DNA from: Candidatus Accumulibacter sp. ACC003 | GTDB taxonomy: Bacteria; Pseudomonadota; Gammaproteobacteria; Burkholderiales; Rhodocyclaceae | Length of the DNA stretch: 64,000 bases | Direction: 5' to 3' | Assembly: GCF_907163085.1 (NCBI RefSeq) | Contig: NZ_CAJQTX010000001.1 | Location: 1 to 64,000 of the forward strand | Shown: piece by piece, positions 4,887 to 31,417 of the stretch | Layout: every line of letters starts with the position of its first letter | Position numbering within the stretch: the stretch's first letter is position 1 | Notes under the pieces: generated by a model | Seen by the model: the letters and a program-made list of their open reading frames with translations, nothing else | The model's database searches: none | What the model was told of the DNA's origin: nothing | Translations under genes and position numbers: made by a program

Positions 4887-7827
4887 CTACCAAGTAGCCG
4901 CTGCAGAGTCCGCCGCAGCGGCCGCAACCGCCGCGGCTGGCGGCCGTTTTGCCGGCAGCAGCAAGCGGAATCGGGAGCCGACGCCGAGCTCGCTGCTGGC
5001 CTCGATGCGCCCACCGTGGCGCTTGGCGATGCCGTAGGACAGCGACAGCCCGAGGCCGGTCCCCTGGCCGACCGGCTTGGTCGTGAAGAAGGGTTCGAAG
5101 ATGCGTGGCAGGTGCTCGGGCGCGATTCCCTTGCCGCTATCCTCGACCTCGACCCAAACATCGTCGCCGGTGCAGCCGGTGCGCAGGCTGATCGTTCCCC
5201 GCTGCTCGATGGCGTGCGCCGCGTTGACCAGCAGGTTCAGCAGGATCTGGTTGATCTGCGCCGCGATGCATTCGACTTCCGGAACGCCGGCGTATTCCTT
5301 GCGGAGCTCGGCCTTGTATTTGATCTCGTTCCAGACAATGTTCAGCGTGCTATCGAGCCCGGCCTCGAGGTCGGCGAACTGCCACTCGGCGGCGTCGATG
5401 CGCGAGAAGTCCTTGAGGTCCTGGACGATCTTGCGGACGCGCTGCAGGCCGGCCAGCGATTCGTCGATCAGCGTGCCGACGTCGTCGCGCACATAGTCGA
5501 GGTCGGCGGCTTGCCGGGCTTCGTTGATTGCCGCCAGCACCGCCGGATGTTCGGCGAGGATGGCGTCGGCCTCGCGGTAGGCGTCGATTACCCGCAGCAG
5601 ACCACCGACCTCGCCCCTGAGGCTGCCGAGGTTGGAATTGACGAAGCCGACCGGGTTGTTGATTTCGTGCGCGACGCCGGCCGCGAGTTGGCCGACCGAA
5701 GCCATCTTCTCGGACTGCAGCAGCTGGTTCTGCGCTTCCTCGAGCTTGCCGTTGAGCTCGGTCAGGCGCTTGACGTGGGCGTGCATTTGCCGTTCGGCGG
5801 CGTATTGGTCGGTCACATCGACGCCGGAACTCAGCGTGCCGGTCACCGTACCTGCGGCATCACGCAGCAGGGCGTTGCTCCACGCCAGACGGCGGACCTG
5901 GCCGGCAGTGGTCAGGATCTCGTTCTGGTTCTCGGCAGCGATGACGCCGCAAGGCGCACCGGCCATCCAGCTCAAGAAACTGCGGCGCAAGGACTCACGT
6001 TGCGGCGCCGGGATATAGCGATCAACCCAGTCGTTGCCGACGATTTCGGTTTCGCTGCGGCCGAGCAGCTCACAGCCGGCCCGGTTGATCATCCGCACCG
6101 AGAGGTCGCAATCGATGACGACGATTACCGCTCGCGCCACGTCGAGGTAGCCCTGCGCCTGTTTGAGCGCGTCGCGCAAGGCCGTTTCGGCAGCCTTGCG
6201 GGTCGTGCTGTCGCGAATGATGCCACTGTAGAAACGCTCGCCGCGCACCGCATAGGCATTGATCGAGAGATCGATCGGGAAGCGCGATCCGTCGCGGCGC
6301 AGCCCCTCGAGTTCGACCGTCTTGCCGAGCACGGGCCCCTCACCGGTGGCGAGATGATGTGCCAGGCCGTGCTGATGTGCCTGGCGCAGTTCGGCGGGTA
6401 TCAACATCGCCAGGTTCTGATCGTGCAGGGCGGTGGCCGGCTGCTCGAAGATCGTGCAGATCGCCGGGTTGAACGAGCGGATCAAACCCTGCTCGTCGAT
6501 CGTGATCACGCCGTCGCGCAGGTTTTCGAGGACGCTGCGCAGTTCCTCTTCCTTGCGACGCAACTGCTCATCGGTCGCCGTCAGTTGCTGATTGCGCTGG
6601 TGCAACTCGGCCAGCAACTTCTGGCGCGCGCGCTCTGCCGTCCGTTGCTCGCTGATGTCGCGAAAGACGACGACGGCGCCAAGCGTGCGCTCGCCGGCGG
6701 CGATCGGCGACCCGGCGAAGTCGACCGGAAAGCTGCTGCCGTCCTGGCGCCAGAAGACCTCGTCGCTGGCGGCGCTCGGTTCCTGGCGAAGTCGGGCGCC
6801 GGAGAGTGGGCATTCGGCAGCCGGATACGGACTGCCGTCGGCGCGCGTATGGTGAAACATCGCGTGCGGTCGCTTGCCGAGCATCTCGGCCGCGCTCCAG
6901 CCAAGCAGGCGCTCGGCGGCCGAATTGACGTAGTTCATCCGGCCTTCGGCGTCGGTTCCGTAGAGCCCCTCGACCATCGATTCGAGGATCGACGCTTGGC
7001 GCTGCTGCAGCAGAGCGATCACCTGGCGATCGTTGTGCAACAAATCGGCGGTCTCGCCAAGCGCCACGATGATGCGCCCGAACTCGCCGCGATGACTGCC
7101 CTGGACGCGCGTTTCGAAGTCGCCGTTGCCGATCCGCTTGAGCGCCTGTTCGATAACCTCCAGCTTGTACATCACGTAGCGGAAGAGGTGGTGCGAGAAA
7201 AACAGCAGGATCGCCAGGCCGACGATGAACAGCAGGCCGCTGCCTAACAGGATATTGCGGTAGACGCTTTGCGCAGCGGCGTAGGTCTTGGCCACGTGCC
7301 CTTCCTGCAGCTCAATCAGCTGCGCGACCGGCGTCGCCACCTGCAACTGCACGGCCCACCAGTCGTCCTTCAGGAAGCCGGCGATCGCCGGCAGATCGCC
7401 AGCGGCAAGGATGGCGTCGAGGTGCGCGAAAAAAAGGCGGCAAGTCGGGAATTGCGCGGTCTATGGTTTCGCCCAGATCCTGCTCGTCGCTGCTGGCGGT
7501 TCCTTGTGCTGTCGCGCGATAGTCTGCCCAGGCCAGCGGAATGGCTCGGCCGGCAGCGCCGGCGTCGAGGCGCGCGCCCGCGGCACTGCGGTCGTCGTTG
7601 AGGACGCCGTAGAGCTGTGCGCGCAGGCGCGTGACTTGCTTGTCGATCAGAATCAGGTTCTGCGTCGGTGCGATTTCCTCTTCCAGGACCTGCCGCAAGC
7701 TCTCCTGACCGCGCCAGCTTCCCCACATGCCGAGGCCGACGACGCTGGCCAGCGTCACGCCGCCGATGCAGGTGAACAACAGCAGGCCCTGGCGGATGCT
7801 CAGTGTTCGGAGGATCGGTATGCTCAT
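4887..7827 (-). pseudogene. Membrane PAS-PAS-PAS sensor histidine kinase, frameshifted in a T7 run
   Basis: Two minus-strand frames together encode one kinase. From ATG 7827 the first frame gives a short N-terminus, a transmembrane helix (LLLFTCIGGVTLASVVGLGMW) and a periplasmic helical sensor. This frame is lost at a T7 homopolymer (A7 on the plus strand, 7429-7435). In the +1-shifted frame the sequence continues FAHLDAILAAGDLPAIAGF, then a second membrane helix, HAMP (YKLEVIEQALKRIGNGDFE), at least three PAS domains, the H-box GQLAAGVAHEINNP and an HATPase domain with GQGTGLGLS. Removing one T restores a single frame of about 980 residues. It is either a recent 1-bp expansion or a sequencing error; everything else looks intact. 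It is divergent from the kinase at 8160. The stop at 4887 lies 37 bp before rtcB. Confidence 0.8.
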
Positions 7828-8159: not shown

Positions 8160-11100
8160 ATGTCCGAGCCACGCTCGCCGACGTCGCCAGATCAACAGCC
8201 GATGGTTGCCGGAACGGCGCGGCCCGCGCCGGCCGCGCACTTCAGCCGCTATCTGGCCGCCGGAATTCTCTGCGTGAACCTCGTGGTTGCCGGTGGCGTG
8301 CTGTTTTTTCTTGACGGCTCGCGCCGCGACAAGGAAGAGAAAGCCCAGGATCGCGCCTTGAGCGTGCTGCGCCTGATCAGCAAGGACGTCGACAATCAGT
8401 ACCGGCGCATCGACGTCAGCCTGCGCGCGGTCGCCGAGGAACACGCCGGGCAGCTCGCCCTCGGTCGCGTCAGCCACGAAGACTGGCTCGCTCGCGTCGC
8501 CGGGCGGCACCCGGCGCTCAATTTCATGCGCATCGCCGACGCCGCCGGCGAAGTCATTTATTCACCCGGAGACGCTGAAAAGGACCGCGCCAACGTCGCC
8601 GACCGCGACTACTTCGTCCGCTTGCGCGACGATCCGCAGGCCGGGTTGGAGATCACCGCGCCGCTGCTCGGGCGAACGTCGGGCAAGATGGTCGTCGTGC
8701 TGGCGCGGCGGCTGGCCGATCGCGCGACGCGCTTCGACGGCGTCGTCGTGGCGTCGATACCCGTCGACTACCTGAGTGGCCTGCTCGGCGAGGTGCCGGT
8801 AGGCCCGCAGGCTTACGTCGGCCTGCTCGATTCGCAGCTCAACTGGGTCGCCTCGACGGCGCCGCCGGCGGCTCTCGGCGCGTCGGCGAAACTGCCACTG
8901 GGCGAGGCGCTGCGCCAGTCGATTGCCGGCGGAGCCAAGCACGCTTCGCTGGTCGTGACGCTTGCCGACGTCGCCTATCTGCTGAGCTACGTGCGCAGCG
9001 ATTCTTATGGCTTCTACACCGTCCTTGCCGAGCCGCGTTCAGGCCAACTGGCCGATTGGCGGCACGAGGCCTGGCTGGCCGCTGCCGGCGTCGCGCTGTT
9101 CGCGCTGCTGAGCAGCTTGCTCGGGCTGCTGTTGAGTCGCAACTGGCGCCAACACGCGGCGGCGACGGCCATTCTGCGCGAACGCGACGAATGGATCCGG
9201 CAGGCGGAGCGCATCGGCGGCCTTGGCCTCTACTCCTTCGAAATAGACCGCCAACGGTTTTTCGTCAGCGAGGCCTTGTATGAGATCGCTGGCATCGACG
9301 CCGCTTACCCGCATACCTGGGCTGGCTGGCTGGCGCTGGTGCACGCCGATGACCGCGATGCGCTCGATGCTGCCTTCAAGCAGGTGCTGGCAAGCGGACG
9401 CGATCTGCCGGGTATCGACTACCGGATCATCCGGCCACTCGATGGCCGCATGCGCTGGGTGAGAAGCTCGGCGCATCTGCGCGCCTCGGCCGAATCAATG
9501 ACAGCGGCGAAATCACCGAAAGCAACGCTGATTGGCGTGCTTCTTGATATCAGCGAGCAAAAGCGCGACGAGGAAAAGCTTCGTGAAAGCGAAGCCGACC
9601 TGAGCGCGGCGGTCGATCAGGCGGCTGCCGGCATCGCTTTCGTCGCTCCCGACGGCCGCTGGCTGCGGGTCAACGATCGCCTGTGCGAGATCGTCGCCTA
9701 CCCGCGCGCCGAGCTGCTGACGCTGCGTTTCCAGGACATCACGCATCCGGACGACCTGGCGATCGATCTGGCGCAGCTCGGGCGGGTGCTGCGCCGGGAA
9801 ATCGACAGCTACACGCTGGAGAAGCGCTACATCCGCAAGGATCGCCGCTGCATCTGGATCAACCTCAGCGTCTCGCTGATTTTCAACGACGACGGCACGG
9901 CCAATCACTTCGTCTCGATCATCGAAGACATCGACGCGCGCAAGAGCGCCGAACGCGAGCTCGGCCGCACGCGCGAACTGCTCAGGAGTTTTCTCGATCA
10001 CCTGCCCGGGCTGGCGTACATCAAGGATCAGTCGCTGCGCATGGTGCACGTCAATCGCCGTTGCCACGAACTGCTGCACCTTGACCCCGAAGACGTGATC
10101 GGCAAGACCAACGCCGAGATCTTTCCCGGTGAACGCGGCGAAGCGATCAGCGCTCGCGATCGCCAGGTGCTCGCTTCCGGCAAGGGCGAGATCGCCGAGC
10201 GAAGTTACGGGGGCAACAGGTATCAGTCGATTCGCTTCGTGATCAAGCAGAATGACGATCTGCCCCTGCTTGGCGGCATCACGATCGACGTCACGGCGCG
10301 TTACAAGCTCGAGCAGCGGACAGCGGCGCTGCTCGAAATCAACGAGCGCGGCGGTACGCTGCCCGAGAAGGAGTTCCTCGCTTACGCGCTCGAAGTTGCC
10401 GAAAAGCTGACCGTCAGCGGTGTCGGCTTTCTGCATTTCATCGACGACGAGGAGACCATCGCCCTGTCGACCTGGAGCGCGGGCGCGCTGCAGCGCTGCA
10501 GCGCGAGCTTCGACACGCACTACCCGATCAGCCAGGCGGGAATCTGGGCCGACTGCTGCCGCGAAAAACGCGCCGTGATGTTCAACGATTACGCCGCGCA
10601 TCCCGCCAGGCGCGGTCTGCCCGACGGGCACTCGCCACTGCTGCGGCTGATCTCGGTGCCGGTGCTCGATGACGGCGCGGTGCGGATGATCGTCGGGGTC
10701 GGCAACAAGGCTGGCGTCTATGACGACTTCGACGTCACCACCGTGCAACTGATAGCCAACGACGTCTGGAACGTCGTCCGCCGCGGGCGCGCCGAGGCCG
10801 CCCTGTCGCTTCGCCTCGCCGAAGTCACCGAACTCAAGGATCAGCTCGAGCAGGCACACCTGCAGTTGCTGCAATCGGAGAAAATGTCGGCGATCGGCCA
10901 GCTCGCGGCCGGCGTCGCGCACGAACTCAACAACCCGATCGGTTTCGTCTACTCCAACCTTGGGACGCTCGCCGACTACGTCGACGACCTGCTGGCGATC
11001 GACGCCGCTGCTGACCGGGTGGCGCGCTTGTCGACCGTGAGCGACGATGGCGCGGTCGACGAACTGCGCCGGCTCAAGCTCGAGTGCGATCATCGCTTTA

Positions 11101-23062: not shown

Positions 23063-24598
23063 TCAGGTCGCGGCGGGCAGGGGATCGACAGCCGCGCAAT
23101 TGATCGGCAGCGTGACGCGGAAACAGCAGCCTTCGGCAACGTCCGAACGCACTTCAATGCGTCCGTGGTGACGCTGAACGATGCCAAATGAGAGCGACAG
23201 GCCGAGGCCCGTACCCTGACCCACCGGCTTGGTGGTGAAAAAAGGTTCAAACACGTGCGGCAGATCCTCTGGCGCGATTCCTTGGCCGGTGTTGTGGATC
23301 TCGATCCAGACGGTCTCGGCATCGCAAGCGGTACTGATCGTGATCCGGCCATACCCTTCGATCGCCTGTGCCGCATTGACCAGCAGGTTCATCAGCACCT
23401 GATTGATCTGCGGCGGAATGCAGTAGATTTCTGGCAGCTTACCGTAGCGCTTGTCGACTTTCGACTTGTATTTGATTTCGTTCCAGACGATATTCAGCGT
23501 GCTCTCCAGCCCCTGATGCAGGTCGCACCACTGCCAATTGCTGTCGCCGGGGCGCGAGAAATCCCGCAGGTCGAGCACGATACGGCGAACACGTTCGAGG
23601 CCCTCGCGCGACTCGCCAAGCAGCGCCATGACATCCTTGCGCAGCGCGGCGTAAGCGATTTCCCCCTTGATCTCTTCGATCCGGGCGGCGCCCTCGCTGC
23701 TGCGCGAGCTGTCTTCTTCGTAGGCGTCGACCAGCCTTAGCAGCTTCATCGTGTACTCGCCCAACATCTCCAGGTTGGAGAGCACGAAACCGAGCGGATT
23801 ATTCACTTCGTGGGCAACGCCGGCGGCCAGTTGGCCAATTGCCGCCATCTTCTCCGCATGCAGCAATTGCGTGTGCGCCGCCGCGAGTTCCTCCTGGTGC
23901 TTTTTGTGCTTCGTCAGATCGGTGTAAGCGCCGACCAGATGGGTGAGCGCGCCATCGGCATCGTGAATTTTCGAAATCGCGAGCAAGGCCGGGTAGAGTG
24001 AGCCATCGCGATGTCGATTGACCACTTCTCCGCGCCAGGAACCCCTTTCGACAATCGACTGCCACATCTCGTCATAGAAAGCCGCGTCTTGCTGGTCAGA
24101 CTTGAGCAGGCGCGGCGTCATGCCGAGCACGTCGGCGGCGCTGTAGCCGGTAATCACCTCGAACGCATGATTGACACGAACGATGACGCCGTCGGGCCGG
24201 GTAACGACGATGCCTTCCTGGATGCTTTCGAATACCTGCCTGTCCAGCGCCATTTCGTCCAGCAGCGCGCGCCGTACGGTCGTGTCGCGCAGGCTGACGG
24301 CAATTGCCGCTTGCCCCAGCCACTCAAATCGCGAGGAGCGCATCTCGGCCATGCCGATGTGGCCCGCGCCATCGATATACTCGATTTCGACGTGTCGACT
24401 GCCGAGCGTGAGCGGCAGGCCAAGGTTCTCGCCAATGAGGCTACGACCGCCGAACATATGCTGAGCCGTATCGTTGGCGTAGAGAACACAGCCCGACAGG
24501 TCGAGCACCAGAAGGCCATCCGGAATCGCCGAAAACAGGCCGAGGATGGTCTCTTCCTCATGCAAGGAGACTTGCGGTGGGTGGGCGTCAGCGGTCAT
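23063..24598 (-). CDS. PAS-PAS sensor histidine kinase, last gene of the kai operon
   Basis: 511 residues, soluble. Two PAS domains (about 18-115 and 120-240) are very similar throughout to those of the PAS/helical protein at 27682-28905, for example LGLFSAIPDG, YANDTAQHMFGG, AIAVSLRDTT and EGIVVTRPDGVIV. The transmitter has H-box [14 protein letters not shown] (H263), N-box MNLLVNAAQAIEGYG and G2 GQGTGLGLSLS. Its start overlaps the stop of the diguanylate cyclase gene (ATGA at 24595-24598). The product probably reads the same signal as its PAS paralogue in the operon and passes it to the single-domain receiver or another regulator. Confidence 0.9.
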   Translation of the reverse strand: MTADAHPPQVSLHEEETILGLFSAIPDGLLVLDLSGCVLYANDTAQHMFGGRSLIGENLGLPLTLGSRHVEIEYIDGAGHIGMAEMRSSRFEWLGQAAIAVSLRDTTVRRALLDEMALDRQVFESIQEGIVVTRPDGVIVRVNHAFEVITGYSAADVLGMTPRLLKSDQQDAAFYDEMWQSIVERGSWRGEVVNRHRDGSLYPALLAISKIHDADGALTHLVGAYTDLTKHKKHQEELAAAHTQLLHAEKMAAIGQLAAGVAHEVNNPLGFVLSNLEMLGEYTMKLLRLVDAYEEDSSRSSEGAARIEEIKGEIAYAALRKDVMALLGESREGLERVRRIVLDLRDFSRPGDSNWQWCDLHQGLESTLNIVWNEIKYKSKVDKRYGKLPEIYCIPPQINQVLMNLLVNAAQAIEGYGRITISTACDAETVWIEIHNTGQGIAPEDLPHVFEPFFTTKPVGQGTGLGLSLSFGIVQRHHGRIEVRSDVAEGCCFRVTLPINCAAVDPLPAAT

Positions 24599-25833
24599 TG
24601 GACAAGCTCTTTTGGCGTTGGGTTAAACAGACGGTAGCAATTCTTGCCGTCCCGCTTGGCCTGGTACATCGCCTGATCGGCATGGCGCAAGAGCGTCTCG
24701 GCATTGGCCGGGTCGCCTGGATACAGCGTCGCGCCAATACTGGCGGACACGGAAAGAACGGCATCGCCGATATGGATCGGATCGGCGACGACGCGCAACA
24801 TCCGCGCCAGCACCGATTCGCATTCCCTGGCGTGCTCCAGGTCAATCAGCACCGCGACGAACTCGTCACCGCCGAGCCGTGCCAGCGTATCGCCCTCGCG
24901 CACGACACTCTTGAGCCGCTGCGAGACGGCTACCAGCAGCTGGTCTCCGACTTCGTGGCCGTGCGCATCATTGGCCGCCTTGAAACCGTCCAGGTCAACG
25001 AAGACCACCGCCAGCATGCGATTGCGGCGCAGACTTTGCGCGATGGCCTGCTGGATACGGTCGGTCAACACCACCCGGTTGGGTAGCTTGGTCAAAGCAT
25101 CGTAATGCGCCGCGTACTCGAGTTGCGCGACTTGCTGCTCATGTTTCTTGAGCGCGGTGACGTCGTGGAACAAACCGACGTAGTTCTGCGTCTTGATGTC
25201 AGCATCACGCACGGCACTGATGGTCAACAAAACGGCATACTCTTCACCATTCTTGTGGCGACCCCAGACTTCACCCGACCAATACCCCAAGGTCTTGAGT
25301 TCATGCCACATGGCACGGTAGTACTCGGCTGCTTGGCGCCCCGAGCTGAAGACGCGCGGGTCCTGACCCAATGCCTCTTCGCGGCTGTAGCCCGACAAGC
25401 CGACGAAGGCATCATTGAGCTGGACAATGGTGCCGCTGGCATCCGTGATGACGATCCCCTCGCGGGCGTGCGCAAAAACGCTGGCCGCCAGTCGCATTTT
25501 GGCCTCGGCCAACACCCGCTCGGAAACATCGGTAAGGACAACCAGGTAGGCATCCCGCCTGCCCCAGCGTGTCTTCTGGACTCGCACCTGCGCATGACCA
25601 GGCTCCTTGGTCGAACGTACAATCTGGATTTCGGTTGCCAGCCCTTCCTCGAGGATCGGCACGCCCAGCTCAGCGCCCAGCAAGGCCGCTGCTGGCCTGT
25701 TGAACAGTTCGCCCGCGCTGGGGTTGCAGTAAAGCACTTTTCCTCTGCTATCAAGAATCAGGATGGCGTCACGCGTCGTCTCGACAATGGCGTTGAAGCG
25801 CTGGCGGTTTCCCTGCAATTTCCGGTTATCCAC
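24595..25833 (-). CDS. PAS-PAS-GGDEF diguanylate cyclase in the kai operon
   Basis: 412 residues from a GTG start at 25833, 19 bp after the kaiC stop, with a GAGGGGG ribosome site. Two PAS domains precede a complete GGDEF domain: HYDALTKLPNR at the start, FVDLDGFKAAND, active-site RLGGDEFVAVL and the SIGATLYP strand. An allosteric RxxD I-site (REGD) sits exactly five residues before GGDEF, so a catalytically active, product-inhibited c-di-GMP synthase is expected. Its 3' end overlaps the PAS kinase start (ATGA). Placement directly behind kaiC suggests that clock or timer state influences c-di-GMP. That link is inference. Confidence 0.9.
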   Translation of the reverse strand: MDNRKLQGNRQRFNAIVETTRDAILILDSRGKVLYCNPSAGELFNRPAAALLGAELGVPILEEGLATEIQIVRSTKEPGHAQVRVQKTRWGRRDAYLVVLTDVSERVLAEAKMRLAASVFAHAREGIVITDASGTIVQLNDAFVGLSGYSREEALGQDPRVFSSGRQAAEYYRAMWHELKTLGYWSGEVWGRHKNGEEYAVLLTISAVRDADIKTQNYVGLFHDVTALKKHEQQVAQLEYAAHYDALTKLPNRVVLTDRIQQAIAQSLRRNRMLAVVFVDLDGFKAANDAHGHEVGDQLLVAVSQRLKSVVREGDTLARLGGDEFVAVLIDLEHARECESVLARMLRVVADPIHIGDAVLSVSASIGATLYPGDPANAETLLRHADQAMYQAKRDGKNCYRLFNPTPKELVQ

Positions 25834-25852
25834 GTGCGACGCCCCCTCTGGC

Positions 25853-27376
25853 CTACTCTCCCAGTTCCTCCCTGAACAGCGAGCCCATTCTTTCGATGTC
25901 CGGCTGCGAAACCTGCATCGGCTGGCCGGAAAGGATCCCCGAAATGCCGTGGAACTGCGCTCCGATATGCATCCCCTCGCCGTCGATGGAATACTCCCGG
26001 ATCCCCTTGTCATGCATCGACCCGCGCATCTTGAGCACCGTGATTCCCCGTCGCATCTCGCCGAACATCTCGACGTAGCGCAGCAGAATGATCGAGTCGG
26101 TAATGGTGGAAATATGTTCCTCGGTGATCGAGGTGCCGCCTAGCAGAGTGGGTGTTGTCGACGAAAACAGCCCGACGATTTCCTGGTGCTTGATGAACGA
26201 CGTTATGCCGATGACGAACTCTCTGAAACTCTTGCCGGTGGAAACGCGCTCGAGCGCCGAAAGACTATCCACTGCGACGCGGGTCGGTTTGAAGGCAACA
26301 ATCTCCCTCTTCATCCGGATCAGGTGGTCTTCGAGCCCCATTACCTCGGGATAGGTACAGACGACCTTCAGCTTGCCGTCGCGCTCCATCTTCTCGAAGT
26401 CCATGCCCCAGCCCGAGGCATTGCGAAAGAGCTGCTCGCGGCTTTCCTCGAAAGCAAACAGCAGGCATTTATCGTTCTGCTTTTGTCCACCGCTGACGAA
26501 AGCCGTGACCAGAAGCGTCTTGCCGCAACCGGTCGCGCCGGAAACGAGAATGATCGAGTCGCGAAAAAAGCCGCCGCCGCACATCGTGTCGAGTTCGTCG
26601 TTGCCCGAGCTGACGCGCACCGTAGACGACTTCTGCTCGAGCTTGGTCTCGGACAGGGGAATGACCACAACGCCTTCGCCGGGGATTACCGTAAAGGGGA
26701 ACTCACCCTTGCCGTGGTCGGTACCGCGAAACTTGAGAATCTCCAGCGTCCGGCGCCGCTTTTCGTCGTCGAGGACGTTGCGCAGGATGATCACGTTGTC
26801 GGCAACGAACTCCTCGACACCGAAGCGGGCCAGCGAACCGTACTCCTCGGTTCTCTCTGCGGTCAGAATCGCCGTTACACCCATTCTTTTCAGGGCTACG
26901 GCCATGCGATGGAGCTCCCGGCGGACCGTCGGCGCTTCGGAAAGCTGACTGAAGACGGCGCCCAGCGAGTCGACCGACACGCGTTGGGCGTGCACCTTGT
27001 TGACCGCATGCTCGATGCGCGCCACCAGGGCGCCGAGGTCGTAGCTGCCGGCCTCGACAACTTCCTGGTCGGGTTGTGGACTGGCGTCGACGAAGGCCAG
27101 CTTGCGCTCGACCACGAACTCTCCGAGGTCCCAGCCGAAACTGAGCATGTTGCGCATGATGTCTTCAGGGGATTCTTCGAAGGTGACAAAGACCCCCCCC
27201 TCGCCTCTGCGGATCCCCTCGAGAAGGAACTGGACGGCAAACACCGTCTTGGAACTTCCCGCCGTTCCCGACAAGAGACAGGTACGACCCTTGGGAAGCC
27301 CACCCACCGAAACATGCTCGAAACCGGGGATGCCGGTTTCAAGCTTTTCTACCGCCGTAATCGCCGAAGTTGACAT
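25853..27376 (-). CDS. kaiC: KaiC, double-domain circadian clock ATPase / autokinase
   Basis: 507 residues with two RecA-like halves. CI has P-loop GTAGSSKT (37-44) and the FEES catalytic glutamates. CII has P-loop GATGCGKT (about 280) and FEES. The autophosphorylation pair equivalent to cyanobacterial S431/T432 is conserved in EEHISTITDS as S423/T424. The KMRGSMHDKGIREY stretch near the end is also canonical. Length is close to cyanobacterial KaiC (519). This predicts an active phosphorylation cycle rather than a degenerate RecA-like ATPase. It starts 3 bp after the kaiB1 stop and is followed closely by a diguanylate cyclase. There is no canonical kaiA. Non-cyanobacterial KaiBC sets can act as hourglass timers or stress regulators. 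Confidence 0.96.
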   Translation of the reverse strand: MSTSAITAVEKLETGIPGFEHVSVGGLPKGRTCLLSGTAGSSKTVFAVQFLLEGIRRGEGGVFVTFEESPEDIMRNMLSFGWDLGEFVVERKLAFVDASPQPDQEVVEAGSYDLGALVARIEHAVNKVHAQRVSVDSLGAVFSQLSEAPTVRRELHRMAVALKRMGVTAILTAERTEEYGSLARFGVEEFVADNVIILRNVLDDEKRRRTLEILKFRGTDHGKGEFPFTVIPGEGVVVIPLSETKLEQKSSTVRVSSGNDELDTMCGGGFFRDSIILVSGATGCGKTLLVTAFVSGGQKQNDKCLLFAFEESREQLFRNASGWGMDFEKMERDGKLKVVCTYPEVMGLEDHLIRMKREIVAFKPTRVAVDSLSALERVSTGKSFREFVIGITSFIKHQEIVGLFSSTTPTLLGGTSITEEHISTITDSIILLRYVEMFGEMRRGITVLKMRGSMHDKGIREYSIDGEGMHIGAQFHGISGILSGQPMQVSQPDIERMGSLFREELGE

Positions 27377-27379
27377 GAG

Positions 27380-27685
27380 TTATTTCCCCGTTTCTTTGTT
27401 GAAACCGTCGACCCGGCTGATATCGAGGCCCAACAGCACTTTTTCCGTATCACTGAGATCGCCGATGACTCGCCGCAAGGGCGGCGGGAGTTCCTTCACC
27501 AGGGTCGGCGTCGCCAGGATCTTCAGGTCTTCGGCCAGCTGTGGCTGCTCGACGACATCGATCACGGTCATTTCGTACGTCCCTTGCAACTCTTCCGCGC
27601 AGATGCGCTGCAGGTTCCTGATGCTCCTCTCGGAGCGCGGGGTCTGCCCGGTGACAAAGAGCGTAAGTCTGAACTTCTTGTTCAT
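27380..27685 (-). CDS. kaiB: KaiB (copy 1)
   Basis: 101 residues with the thioredoxin-like, fold-switching KaiB signature: FRLTLFVTGQTPRSERSIRNL, VIDVVEQPQLAEDLKILATPTLVKELPPP and VLLGLDI. KaiB binds the CI ring of phosphorylated KaiC. The start codon overlaps the stop of the preceding PAS/helical gene (ATGA at 27682-27685) and kaiC begins 3 bp after its stop, so the three products are coupled stoichiometrically. Confidence 0.96.
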   Translation of the reverse strand: MNKKFRLTLFVTGQTPRSERSIRNLQRICAEELQGTYEMTVIDVVEQPQLAEDLKILATPTLVKELPPPLRRVIGDLSDTEKVLLGLDISRVDGFNKETGK

Positions 27686-28905
27686 GCGGATTCCTTCTTC
27701 GGCCTGCGCCTGGATGCTTTGCTGTTCGCCGCGTCAACGGGGTCGAGCGGTCTCGGTGAGCGATAGTAGTTCTTACGATAAAACGAGACCAGATATCCCA
27801 TCAACTCCAACACCAGGAAGCGCCCTTCTTCAATCATGGCTTTCGCCTTCATCGGCGGAACGGTCTTTGCATTATTTGCCAGTGTCATTGAGTGCAACTC
27901 GGCGACATCACGCGCTCCCGCCTGCAGATAGCCCATATCATCCGCCAGTTCCCGAAGCTGGTCCGAGACGGGGTTTTCGGCCTTGAGTGCGAGGTTCTCC
28001 AGTGCCAGCGCCAGAATCTCACCGTACCTCGAAACCAGTTCGGCAAAGACATCCCGGGCGGACTGCGAAAGTGGGACGACACTATACATGCTGCTGACGA
28101 CCGATAGTGAAGCGGGATTGGCGATTGCCTCCCTGCGTTCGAGTTCCTCGCGTATCTTCTCGGATTGCCGCAGCTGCAACTTCGCCGCTTCCAGTGCGGC
28201 CTCGTCGGCCTTGCGTCGGGTCAGATCGGAAAAAATGCCGACCAGATGTGTGACCTGAGCATCGGCGTCTCGAATTCGCGAGATCGAGAGCAACTCGGGA
28301 TAAAGCGATCCGTCCTTGCGTCGATTGACGACCTCGCCCTGCCAGAAGCCGTTTTTGGCAATCGCTTTCCACATCAGCGTGTAGAAGGCGCGATCGTGCT
28401 CGTGCGACTTGAGAATGCGCGGCGTACGGCCAAGCGCTTCTTCCGCGCTATAGCCGGTGATCTCGGTAAAAGAGCGATTGACGCTAACGATGACGCCGTC
28501 GGGACGGGTGACGATGATGCCTTCACGAGCGCTCTCGAACACCCGCCCGGCGAGCACCAATTGCTGCGCCAGCGCGCGTCTCTCGGTCGTGTCGCGCAGG
28601 CTGACCGCAATCGCCGGCTGGCCCAGCCAGTCGAACGCCACGGCGCGCAGCTCTGCCCAACCGATGCGGCCGGCACTATCGATAGACTCGATTTCGCTAC
28701 AGCTGTTGCCCAAATCAATCGGCAGACCGAGGTTTTTTCCAAGCAGCGGGCGGCCACCGAACATGTGATGGGCGCTGGTGTTGGCGTAGAGGACGACGCC
28801 CGCATCATCAAGCACAACGATGCCGTCCGGCATCGCCGAAAACAGACCGAGAACGGCGCCCTTGTCGAACGATGACTCTAGTTGAAGCCGTGGATCAGCA
28901 GTCAT
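27682..28905 (-). CDS. PAS-PAS protein with C-terminal KaiA/RsbU-like helical domain (no kinase)
   Basis: 407 residues. Two PAS domains (about 15-105, 115-235) are followed by a coiled coil (235-262) and an all-helical C-terminal domain (about 275-385). There is no HisKA or HATPase. The helical domain (ARDVFAELVSRYGEILALAL, LRELADDMGYLQAGARDVAE, LVLELMGYLVSFYRKNYY) has the length and hydrophobic pattern of the four-helix KaiA C-terminal / RsbU N-terminal fold. That makes it a candidate KaiA analogue regulating KaiC, or an RsbT/partner-binding module. The PAS pair is paralogous to that of the histidine kinase ending the operon. The gene sits immediately upstream of kaiB1-kaiC with a 4-bp overlap. 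The fold assignment is inference from pattern, not search. Confidence 0.75.
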   Translation of the reverse strand: MTADPRLQLESSFDKGAVLGLFSAMPDGIVVLDDAGVVLYANTSAHHMFGGRPLLGKNLGLPIDLGNSCSEIESIDSAGRIGWAELRAVAFDWLGQPAIAVSLRDTTERRALAQQLVLAGRVFESAREGIIVTRPDGVIVSVNRSFTEITGYSAEEALGRTPRILKSHEHDRAFYTLMWKAIAKNGFWQGEVVNRRKDGSLYPELLSISRIRDADAQVTHLVGIFSDLTRRKADEAALEAAKLQLRQSEKIREELERREAIANPASLSVVSSMYSVVPLSQSARDVFAELVSRYGEILALALENLALKAENPVSDQLRELADDMGYLQAGARDVAELHSMTLANNAKTVPPMKAKAMIEEGRFLVLELMGYLVSFYRKNYYRSPRPLDPVDAANSKASRRRPKKESA

Positions 28906-28952
28906 TGGGCAAGTACTTGGTCATTGGCGTGGGGGATAGCGGGCGTCATCGT

Positions 28953-29246
28953 TCAGCGGCTCTGGTTTGGCTTTCCATCGCTGGCAATGATCGAGAGGAT
29001 CTTCTCGGACTGGGCAATGCCACCGAGCAGCTTCAGGATCGGCAAAGGCACGATCCTTACCAGGGTAGGTGTGGCGAAGACGTCGCTCTGCAGCGCCTTT
29101 TCCGGCTCCTCGAGGACATCGACCACTTCCAGCGTCCAGTTTCCAGGACCGACTTCGGCGTCCATCGCCTGGCCCAGATTGGCCACCTGTTGCCGTATTT
29201 CGTCATTGGCGCCAGCGACGAACAGGCTCAATTGCAGTATGCTCAT
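28953..29246 (-). CDS. KaiB homologue (copy 2, divergent)
   Basis: 97 residues. It shares the KaiB layout (LQLSLFVAGANDEIRQQVANL, EVVDVLEEPEKALQSDVFATPTLVRIVPLP, SEKILSII) but differs at most positions from KaiB1 and lacks the charged tail. Its ATG overlaps the receiver gene stop (29243-29246). A second KaiB-type protein within one kai operon often binds other partners, such as histidine-kinase output proteins. Which partner it has here cannot be told. Confidence 0.88.
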   Translation of the reverse strand: MSILQLSLFVAGANDEIRQQVANLGQAMDAEVGPGNWTLEVVDVLEEPEKALQSDVFATPTLVRIVPLPILKLLGGIAQSEKILSIIASDGKPNQSR

Positions 29247-29650
29247 GGCTTGCTTTCCGTATCGTGGGGTGCTAAGTCGCTTGCCGTGATCGCTTTCGCG
29301 ATCATTCGAATCTGCTCCGGCGACAGGGGTTTGGCAGCCAGTTGGAAAGACATGCCGTCTTCCCTGGCCTGGCGCAGTCGTTCCAGATACTCCTGCGCAA
29401 AGGCCGTAGCGATGTACACCGCTATCGTCGCGTCCATGGCTTGCAGTCGACGCAGAGTTTCCACCCCGTCCATGCCCGGCATGTTGAGATCGAGAAATAC
29501 CAGATCGGGGCGCCGCGCAGCGGCAAGCTCCAGTCCGACCGGCCCGCTGTCGGCGAGCTGGACATCGTAGCCCTCGTCGATCAGCGCAAGCTCGAAGGCG
29601 TCACGCACCGCACGATCATCGTCGACTACCAGAATTACTTGCGCTGCCAT
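29243..29650 (-). CDS. Single-domain response regulator (CheY-like receiver)
   Basis: 135 residues, receiver only: ILVVDDDRAVRDAFELAL (acidic pocket), acceptor Asp in DLVFLDLNMPGMDG, Thr in YIATAF and Lys in LAAKPLS. There is no output domain, so it acts by protein interaction or as a phosphate shuttle. Start ATG at 29650 overlaps the stop of the upstream kinase, and its own stop overlaps kaiB2. The kinase at 29650-31170 is the obvious phosphodonor. Confidence 0.92.
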   Translation of the reverse strand: MAAQVILVVDDDRAVRDAFELALIDEGYDVQLADSGPVGLELAAARRPDLVFLDLNMPGMDGVETLRRLQAMDATIAVYIATAFAQEYLERLRQAREDGMSFQLAAKPLSPEQIRMIAKAITASDLAPHDTESKP

Positions 29651-31170
29651 CACTTTTCCTCGCGAAAAACACCAATTTCGATAGCGAAAACAGCGCCACC
29701 ACCCGGCGCATCAGCCTGCGTCAGCTGCCCCCCGGCATTGTCAATCAACTGACGAGAAACTGCCAGCCCCAGGCCGGTCCCGCTGCCGGTCGACCGGGTG
29801 GTAAAAAACGGATCGAAAATCCTGGTCCGGAGGGCTTTCGGAATCCCCGGGCCGTTGTCGGCGATGCTCAGCACGGCGCGTGCTGTCTCGGGCTGCTCGA
29901 GCAGCGTAAGAGTCACCCGATGCGGCGCCGGCGACTCTTGGCAGGCGTGGCAGGCATTGAGCAGCAGATTGAGCAGCACCTGCTGCAGGGCATCACCGGT
30001 GCAGCGCAGGCGCGGCACCAGCGCTGGCAGGCGAAGATCGAAGGCCACGTCGGCCTGACGCATCTCCCCTTCAATCAGCGCCAGAGTGTCGGCAATGACC
30101 CGTGCCGGGTCGCAGTGCTGATTGGCAGCCGCTGGCTGCATACGCGCGTACACCAGCATGTTCTTGACAATGCGGGCAACGCGCTCGACTTCTCCGACCG
30201 CACGTTCAAGCATCTCGCGCGGCCGCCCGGGTTCCAGCTTGTCGATGGCGTAGGCGAGGTAGCCGTGGATACCCATCAGAGGATTGTTGACCTCGTGGGC
30301 AACACCACCGACCAGGGTGCCCAGGGCGCTCAGCTTTTCCATCTGTACCGCTTTGGCCTGTGACTGCTTGAGTTCCTGATAGGCGGATGCCAGTTTCGCC
30401 GTGCGCTTGACCACCTTCTTTTCGAGCTCCAGGTTCAGCGTTTTCAGCGCCTCGGCTGCCCGCGCTTGCGCTGCTCGCGCCCGATTCAGCTGCGCCGACA
30501 TGTCGTTGAAAGTACGGGAAAGTCGACCAAACTCGTTGCCGCTGGTGATGGGCAAGGCGTGCTCCAGATCGCCGCTCGCCGCGCGCTCCAGTCCGGTGAG
30601 CAACAAGCTGAAACCCTGGCTTAGACGTCGCGACAAGAAACCCAGGGCCAGCACGCTGAAGAGAGACGAGGCGACCAGCACCGTGATGATCCGCGTATCC
30701 GCGGTGTGCTGGATGCGCTCCATCGACTGGCGCTGCAGATCGGCAAGTTGCTGCACCTTGAAGCGCAAGACCTGAACGTTAAGCAGCAGGGCCGCCATCA
30801 CTTCTTCACGCGCAATATCGTGGCCGTCGAGCAACAAGTTCATCAGGCGGCCATTGTCCGCAAGATCTGTGCGGATGGCATCGAGCAGCCCGGCGCTTGC
30901 CGGCTCGCTGAAGTGCGCGTCAGCCAGCAATTCGCTTACCGCGGCATGCTGTTTGCGTGCCTGCATGGCGACTCGGGGACTGGTGTAGAGCATGTGCTCC
31001 TGATTCAGGATGATCAGGCTGGCAATCTCGCGGCTAGCCTGCTCCGCTAGCTGTGCCCCGTAGCGCGACTGATCGACGTCTTTCCAGGACGCCCAAAGGA
31101 GCGCGCCGACCAGCAGGGCGAAGACCCCGGGAAGCAGCGCGGCCAGTCTGAGTTGGCTTCGGATGAGCAC
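29650..31170 (-). CDS. Membrane sensor histidine kinase (helical periplasmic sensor, HAMP)
   Basis: About 506 residues. A short N-terminus leads into TM1 ([20 protein letters not shown]), a periplasmic four-helix-type sensor of about 145 residues, TM2 ([18 protein letters not shown]), HAMP ([18 protein letters not shown]) and a coiled coil. The transmitter has H-box [22 protein letters not shown] and ATPase boxes [13 protein letters not shown] and [13 protein letters not shown]. It is a different subfamily from the GQLAAGVAHE kinases elsewhere in the window. The start is uncertain: GTG 31170 lies 4 bp after the stop of a small upstream frame, while ATGs at 31248 and 31269 would extend it by an implausible leader. 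It heads the kai operon with its receiver. Confidence 0.85.
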
Positions 31171-31174
31171 GCGA

Positions 31175-31417
31175 TCAGGCTCGGGAAATGACCGTAGCCG
31201 CTTCGTCGCGAGCCACGCTTTCGGCGCACAGGAGACGCCGCACGGCATCCGGATGTTGGCGCACGCCATCGTCTCGGCCAAGGAGCAAGAAAGGACTGAC
31301 TGCCAGCCCGGAGGCGGTCCCGAGGGCCGCGAACGGGCGTGCGACACGAAAAGCGCTGCCGATAGCAGCGACGAAATCGATCAGCGGCTCTTTCGCCGCA
31401 GCCACCGTGCCGTCCAA
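31175..31417 (-). CDS. Small hypothetical protein at the head of the kai operon
   Basis: An 80-residue frame starting TTG at 31417 with AGGAG placed 7 bp upstream and ending TGA at 31175-31177, only 4 bp before the GTG of the sensor kinase. Codon third positions are mostly G/C, as in neighbouring genes. The sequence (MDGTVAAAKEPLIDFVAAIG at the start, then ARPFAALGTASGLAVSPFLLLG) is not one I recognise, and has no clear signal peptide or full transmembrane helix. It may instead be a leader or the degraded remnant of a larger gene. Codon bias and ribosome site make translation plausible. Confidence 0.45.
   Translation of the reverse strand: MDGTVAAAKEPLIDFVAAIGSAFRVARPFAALGTASGLAVSPFLLLGRDDGVRQHPDAVRRLLCAESVARDEAATVISRA

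Follow-up and report, generated by a model that had tools for sequence, protein, structure and literature searches.

Kai-based timekeeping outside the cyanobacteria is an open question, partly because most of the bacteria concerned have been thought to lack KaiA. The closest described system, drawn on here like the other literature from passages of the articles cited, is the KaiA3-KaiB3-KaiC3 set of Synechocystis sp. PCC 6803: KaiA3, named by Koebler et al. in 2024, joins a receiver domain to a KaiA-like tail, its gene precedes kaiB3 in 15 species of cyanobacteria and is present in five non-cyanobacterial genera, and the three Synechocystis proteins form a damped oscillator in vitro (PMC11372060). 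The same passages describe the KaiC2 of Rhodobacter as having an extended C-terminus and working as a KaiA-independent hourglass. The N-termini given for KaiA proteins by Dvornyk and Mei in 2021 are OmpR, REC, AtoC and PHA02030, with no PAS listed in the passages cited (PMC8113500), and kaiC and kaiB have been noted in the wastewater genus Defluviicoccus (PMC9041414). We analysed a 64,000-nucleotide stretch of Candidatus Accumulibacter sp. ACC003 (henceforth the window; positions 1 to 64,000 of contig NZ_CAJQTX010000001.1, in a 5.39 Mb genome assembled in 13 contigs), in which a kai operon occupies positions 23063-31417 on the minus strand. The C-terminal domain of its PAS-PAS-helical protein (27682-28905) is KaiA-like and belongs to the KaiA3 family, and the operon as a whole is a KaiA3-KaiB3-KaiC3-like set, of a known kind but a variant and not a full member. 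No report of a PAS-KaiA fusion, or of an Accumulibacter kai operon, was found in the open-licence literature.

The evidence for the KaiA-like domain comes from sequence profiles. A profile started from the tail of the window protein finds matches in 64 of 80 KaiC loci, nearly all directly upstream of kaiB and kaiC; ten of the 16 loci without a match are cyanobacterial, seven of these Microcystis, and kaiC3 has been described as lying apart from kaiA3B3 in Synechocystis and in M. aeruginosa NIES-843 (PMC11372060). Against the PDB a profile of 63 tails, made without L040 and L051, which are incomplete, and without L097 from the same genus, returned ten matches at E ≤10, eight of them KaiA (best E 0.0087), the others being SHERP (E 0.019) and a MarR-type regulator (E 0.6), and hhalign aligned it with 12 canonical KaiA over 96 columns in register (E 1.7e-4, probability 49). 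When 24,476 sequences were ranked by the profile (the real and reversed open reading frames (ORFs) of loci without KaiA3, plus the 12 canonical KaiA), the top 14 were all canonical KaiA (E 8.5e-7 to 0.025): the 12 planted sequences and two Crocosphaera ORFs, one of which duplicates a planted gene, or 13 distinct genes, with the first decoy at E 0.05 and 24,462 decoys below canonical KaiA. The reverse search with a canonical KaiA profile ranked two KaiA first, followed by 23 rows of the KaiA3 family (E 7.9e-5 to 1.1), the first decoy standing at rank 26. Pfam KaiA is reached at E ≤0.01 by five of the 64 full-length family proteins (best 8.3e-4), and Pfam RsbU_N by one (E 0.008). Homology to KaiA is in this way established for the family, and the window protein is linked to KaiA through its membership and not directly: because it is a clear member, scoring 145 bits against the tail profile, it can be considered KaiA-related. 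Searched for independently of KaiC, the tail was matched in 22 of 398 Pseudomonadota genomes, the window's own included, and kaiB lies inside the fetched locus in 25 of the 26 Pseudomonadota tail loci besides the window's, the 26th stopping at a contig edge. Among 150 genomes of the family the single tail sequence matched its own genome only, as did the profile among 300 genomes of the order. An original prediction, made from the letters of the window, had reported no canonical kaiA. Taken literally this is correct, but the gene for the PAS-PAS-helical protein is a member of the KaiA3 family, so that the inference of an absent kaiA was wrong; the accompanying picture of a KaiBC hourglass without KaiA is not supported at a locus with a KaiA3-family domain and a KaiC of the KaiC3 type.

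The operon consists of eight well-supported genes and one doubtful small ORF. In the order of transcription, with domains from Pfam and NCBIfam, they are:

31175-31417, minus strand: doubtful small ORF of 80 amino acids with a TTG start, without a Pfam match.
29650-31170, minus strand: membrane histidine kinase, HAMP-HisKA-HATPase by Pfam, with a 65% identical protein in Ca. Accumulibacter regalis.
29243-29653, minus strand: single-domain response regulator receiver (Pfam Response_reg, 82 bits; 74% identical in A. regalis).
28953-29246, minus strand: kaiB2, a divergent KaiB paralogue (Pfam KaiB, 51 bits).
27682-28905, minus strand: PAS-PAS-KaiA, KaiA3-family protein by profile membership, the KaiA-like domain at about residues 260-380.
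27380-27685, minus strand: kaiB1, KaiB3-like, beside kaiC (Pfam KaiB, 97 bits).
25853-27376, minus strand: kaiC, 507 amino acids, assigned to the KaiC3 type by TIGR02655 (655 bits), tree and motifs.
24595-25833, minus strand: PAS-PAS-GGDEF diguanylate cyclase with a GTG start (Pfam), with a GGDEF motif and, by eye, an RxxD I-site motif.
23063-24598, minus strand: PAS-PAS histidine kinase (Pfam), with a PAS pair that is a paralogue of the one in the KaiA3-family protein.

Overlaps of 4 bp are found at four junctions (membrane kinase/receiver, receiver/kaiB2, PAS-PAS-KaiA/kaiB1 and diguanylate cyclase/PAS kinase), and gaps of 47 bp between kaiB2 and PAS-PAS-KaiA, 3 bp between kaiB1 and kaiC, and 19 bp between kaiC and the diguanylate cyclase. 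The gene order, strand, coordinates and tight spacing first described for the locus agree with the ORF list and translations, as do the domain descriptions with Pfam and NCBIfam, and eight of the nine genes then counted are well supported; the small ORF, with no Pfam match and no tblastn match at E 1e-3 across the 80 KaiC loci, is not confirmed as a gene. The longest ORF of the membrane kinase extends to 31347; its start is probably at 31170, because the alignment with the regalis protein begins there.

A genome search found one KaiC with two full KaiC ATPase domains and two KaiB. Among 104 aligned KaiC rows, in which some genes are represented twice, the window KaiC retains TFEES and AFEES, that is both catalytic Glu pairs, and S423/T424 in SITEEHISTITD, all of which had been predicted. 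Of the two P-loops predicted with them, that of CI departs from the expected GxxxxGKT and reads GTAGSSKT. The sixth position of this Walker A motif is Ala in 69 rows, Ser in 19 and Gly in 16 (Ser or Ala in 88/104), with Gly in all eight KaiC1 rows and Ser or Ala in all eight cyanobacterial KaiC3 rows. The protein is 66-71% identical to these eight cyanobacterial KaiC3, 53-55% to the eight KaiC1 and 32-38% to three KaiC2-like proteins, and its C-terminal tail is short. A quick tree was built from 75 rows after 29 of the original 104 had been taken out, mostly near relatives from cyanobacteria or Roseiflexus and KaiC3 genes fetched twice. It places the window KaiC with those of Accumulibacter, beside Quisquiliibacterium, on the side of KaiC3 and apart from KaiC1; support by the Shimodaira-Hasegawa-like approximate likelihood ratio test is 99 for setting KaiC1 apart and 91 for the KaiC3 side. 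By these comparisons KaiC is of the KaiC3 type, not a canonical KaiC1 or a KaiC2. For the KaiB proteins, a tree of 85 rows thinned from 101 groups kaiB1 with other Accumulibacter KaiB (support 99) and apart from canonical KaiB, its wider placement being weakly supported, and puts kaiB2 on a long branch shared with regalis alone, its place otherwise weakly defined. Whether kaiB2 could be a stand-alone SasA-like output domain was considered and is not supported: its best PDB match is KaiB 8fwj (E 4.7e-11), far better than the SasA N-domain (E 0.12). No KaiB-domain kinase (SasA) was found in the genome, where the two KaiB-family matches are both stand-alone genes of the operon.

The operon is conserved in part within the genus. 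Five of 28 Accumulibacter genomes searched, the window's included, carry this KaiC at 89-100% identity (89-90% in Ca. Accumulibacter appositus, regalis and adiacens), and the core order PAS-PAS-KaiA, kaiB1, kaiC, PAS-PAS kinase is kept in all five, the adiacens kinase being cut by a contig end. The kinase-receiver-kaiB2 cassette is intact in two, the window and regalis; adiacens retains fragments of the receiver and apparently of the kinase, and the genome G169 has a different kinase at that place. An intact diguanylate cyclase is found in the window alone: regalis has N- and C-terminal scraps of it, and in the other three genomes the 110-222 bp between kaiC and the kinase leave it no room. 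For this reason a cyclic di-GMP output is no conserved part of the operon. Among the Accumulibacter KaiC the window branches first and regalis second, and because of this order the larger operon is probably ancestral and being trimmed to its core. Between window and regalis the ratio of nonsynonymous to synonymous divergence (dN/dS) is 0.08 for kaiC and kaiB1, 0.14-0.20 for the receiver, kaiB2 and KaiA3, and 0.26-0.27 for the kinases, all rough values given a dS of 0.62-1.26, and these seven genes are under purifying selection. As for the gene order in relatives, then, the core is conserved and the outer genes are partly lost; the timing module of the original prediction is well supported as a genomic unit with its own sensors, and less settled in its outputs, the predicted receiver and cyclic di-GMP routes being found intact in two and one of the five genomes, respectively. 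No shared site of the operon was found; the relative of the flanking patatin gene lies, in the four other kai-bearing genomes, on a contig other than that of kai. Two other Accumulibacter genomes (G172 and G168, loci L092 and L093) encode a KaiC2-like protein of 36-39% identity with kaiB genes nearby, which would amount to a further type of Kai system within Accumulibacter. A record titled Accumulibacter sp. bin_122 (L023) holds a different kai locus, whose KaiC is 71% identical and grouped with Acetobacteraceae and which also encodes REC-PAS-KaiA3 and REC-PAS-kinase-REC; it is either an independent acquisition or a mislabelled bin.

In the window, the PAS pairs of the KaiA3-family protein and of the downstream kinase are 60% identical and that of the diguanylate cyclase more distant (34-37%). 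The first two form separate clades, and their concerted evolution was rejected, since they fall on separate sides of the tree with a support of 0.999. The best match of the KaiA3 sensor is its own neighbour in ten of 47 loci, five of these Accumulibacter, when members of Accumulibacter are not compared with one another, nor members of the Roseiflexus group; sensor sharing between KaiA3 and its neighbours holds only partly as a general rule, 37 loci being without it. In 14 of the 80 KaiC loci, five of them from related cyanobacteria, GGDEF proteins are encoded within 5 kb of kaiC and in the same orientation. Histidine kinase or GGDEF/EAL genes downstream of non-cyanobacterial kaiBC were already described in the Ramlibacter genome paper of 2011 (PMC3164672), and the presence of such genes beside kaiBC is not new.

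The locus is most economically modelled as a timer of the KaiA3 type in which a cytoplasmic PAS sensor switches KaiA, and we think it probable that the operon is a post-translational timer of the KaiA3-KaiB3-KaiC3 type, sensor-gated, with the PAS kinase as its output and with lineage-specific extras. In such a timer, the C-terminal domain of the PAS-PAS protein would bind KaiC and stimulate CII autophosphorylation at S423/T424; KaiB1 would then bind phosphorylated KaiC and capture KaiA, upon which KaiC would dephosphorylate. The tandem PAS may be a flavin sensor or another sensor of redox state or small molecules; it would gate KaiA activity, and this gating would reset or entrain any periodic cycle by chemistry (oxygen/redox or feast-famine state), not by light. 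The downstream PAS-PAS kinase would read a related cue via its paralogous sensor and, together with the state of KaiC, drive output by phosphotransfer, while the kinase-receiver-kaiB2 cassette and the diguanylate cyclase would serve as lineage-specific extra inputs or outputs. A non-photosynthetic wastewater bacterium might thereby run a clock or timer set by chemistry instead of light. The alternation of anaerobic feed and aerobic famine is believed to favour Accumulibacter (PMC9041414), and we hypothesize that it entrains the operon.

Several observations weigh against this model. The window protein is absent from the 44 rows at E ≤10 of the canonical KaiA profile search, it has no Pfam KaiA match, and its tail as a single sequence finds no KaiA in the PDB, KaiA having been matched with the 63-row profile only; the KaiA fold of the tail is a judgement from sequence profiles. 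Synechocystis KaiA3 shows lower conservation of the residues by which KaiA binds KaiC (PMC11372060), and the KaiC3 of two cyanobacteria and two archaea were phosphorylated independently of S. elongatus KaiA (PMC5520375). The window PAS kinase has HNTGQG at its G1 box instead of D.G.G, which may weaken ATP binding; three of its Accumulibacter orthologs have DNG or DTG there. Flavin binding by the PAS pair is suggested, perhaps, by the similarity of PAS2 to 3ewk, its closest structure, and to 2gj3, which we take to be the FAD sensors MmoS and NifL, and between the two score PAS structures of hybrid histidine kinases that are presumably of the LOV (light-oxygen-voltage) type. LOV blue-light sensors carry a photoactive Cys in the NCRFLQ motif of their PAS; this cysteine is absent from PAS2, where the aligned site reads GRTPRILKS.

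Three other explanations can be set against the same data. We consider it rather unlikely that the operon is a KaiABC-like switch and no clock, a redox or energy-charge sensor in which the state of KaiC tracks conditions without an intrinsic period and controls the stress response or storage metabolism: Kai homologs take part in stress responses of Legionella and Pseudomonas (cited in PMC11372060), and the operon is patchy (5 of 28 genomes in the genus) and losing parts, but purifying selection maintains the phosphosites, KaiB1 and the KaiA-like gene, and the closest system that has been reconstituted does show oscillation, albeit damped. An hourglass without KaiA as in Rhodobacter, first proposed for this locus, would have KaiC and KaiB follow ATP/ADP and make the PAS-helical protein an unrelated adaptor; it would agree with the KaiA-independent autophosphorylation of the KaiC3 tested (PMC5520375) and with the lack of a direct match of the window protein to canonical KaiA, but it is improbable in view of a tail family homologous to KaiA and linked to kaiB, and of a KaiC3-type protein of 507 amino acids without the extended C-terminus of Rhodobacter KaiC2 (PMC11372060). 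It is very unlikely that the tail serves as a partner-binding domain like RsbU-N, which would recruit another switch kinase and not KaiC, for the shared fold (PMC11372060) and the one RsbU_N match are outweighed by the five Pfam KaiA matches, by a PDB search topped by KaiA with RsbU not among its ten matches, and by kaiB in 25 of 26 loci.

The sensor domains of KaiA3-type proteins vary. Pfam finds Response_reg in 44 of the 64 KaiA3-type proteins and PAS in 23, some having both. Two Nitrospirota encode MASE3-PAS with a KaiA-like domain (L016, 6090-8057; L029, 1562-3538), by its architecture a membrane-anchored KaiA, and Methylobacter (L081, 8621-9712) has, upstream of kaiB-kaiC, a protoglobin joined to a KaiA-like C-terminal domain; such a KaiA might sense gas, and no report of one was found in the open-licence literature. 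The KaiA3-type protein of Kuenenia (L050) has HAMP-PAS and a sub-cut-off match to Cache. Ca. Magnetocorallium paracelense XS-1 (L063) carries two REC-KaiA3-type genes (5751-6623 and 8714-9559), each upstream of kaiB-kaiC; with this Nitrospirota, at least one genome published with a kaiBC-based system (PMC10278575, in the passages available) contains two KaiA3-type genes in its locus. A more divergent KaiA3-like class with kaiB upstream was seen in six Pseudomonadota loci (L153-L156, L158, L160), with a second kaiB downstream in L154, L155, L156 and L160 and one in-frame TGA reported in each of L154 and L155. In Crocosphaera, canonical kaiA and kaiA3 lie within about 10 kb of each other (L015, 408-1367 and 8662-9567; L011, 2289-3311 and 8355-9242), the two clock sets being chromosomal neighbours. 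More tentatively, and with the possibility of being wrong foremost in mind, we suggest that KaiA could be a general clock-setting domain with exchangeable sensors, spread far beyond the cyanobacteria and plugged into PAS, receiver, MASE3 membrane, protoglobin and perhaps Cache domains; many KaiBC systems considered KaiA-less would then be overlooked KaiABC systems, and the Accumulibacter version a true oscillator entrained by redox or feast-famine. A modular KaiA offers a route to asking how clocks gain new input signals, and here a compact three-protein set with sensors of its own is found in an organism of reactors that alternate anaerobic feeding and aerobic famine.

Among the known systems, the KaiBC hourglass of Rhodobacter sphaeroides is a KaiC2-type system with which the locus shares a non-cyanobacterial KaiB and KaiC, and from which it differs in a KaiC3-type protein lacking the extended C-terminus and in the presence of a KaiA-like protein. 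Compared with the kaiBC operons of the Ramlibacter paper, it has a KaiA-like gene upstream, of which the passages cited make no mention (PMC3164672). It resembles the canonical KaiABC of S. elongatus in the order kaiA-kaiB-kaiC, the Ser/Thr phosphosites and the two ATPase domains, but has no KaiA pseudo-receiver or Pfam KaiA match, a KaiC only 53-55% identical to eight KaiC1, Ser for Gly in the CI Walker A motif, and no SasA in the genome search. Its likeness to the Synechocystis system, as far as KaiA3 is concerned, is judged by architecture, length, synteny and shared taxa, not by the sequence of Synechocystis KaiA3 itself: a KaiA-like C-terminal domain is encoded upstream of kaiB and kaiC, KaiC falls in the KaiC3 clade with its Ser/Thr phosphosites kept, and KaiA carries an N-terminal signalling domain. 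The Accumulibacter version differs in that tandem PAS domains replace the receiver, in the addition of a divergent kaiB2, a diguanylate cyclase and a PAS kinase whose sensor is paralogous, and in its host, a non-photosynthetic betaproteobacterium.

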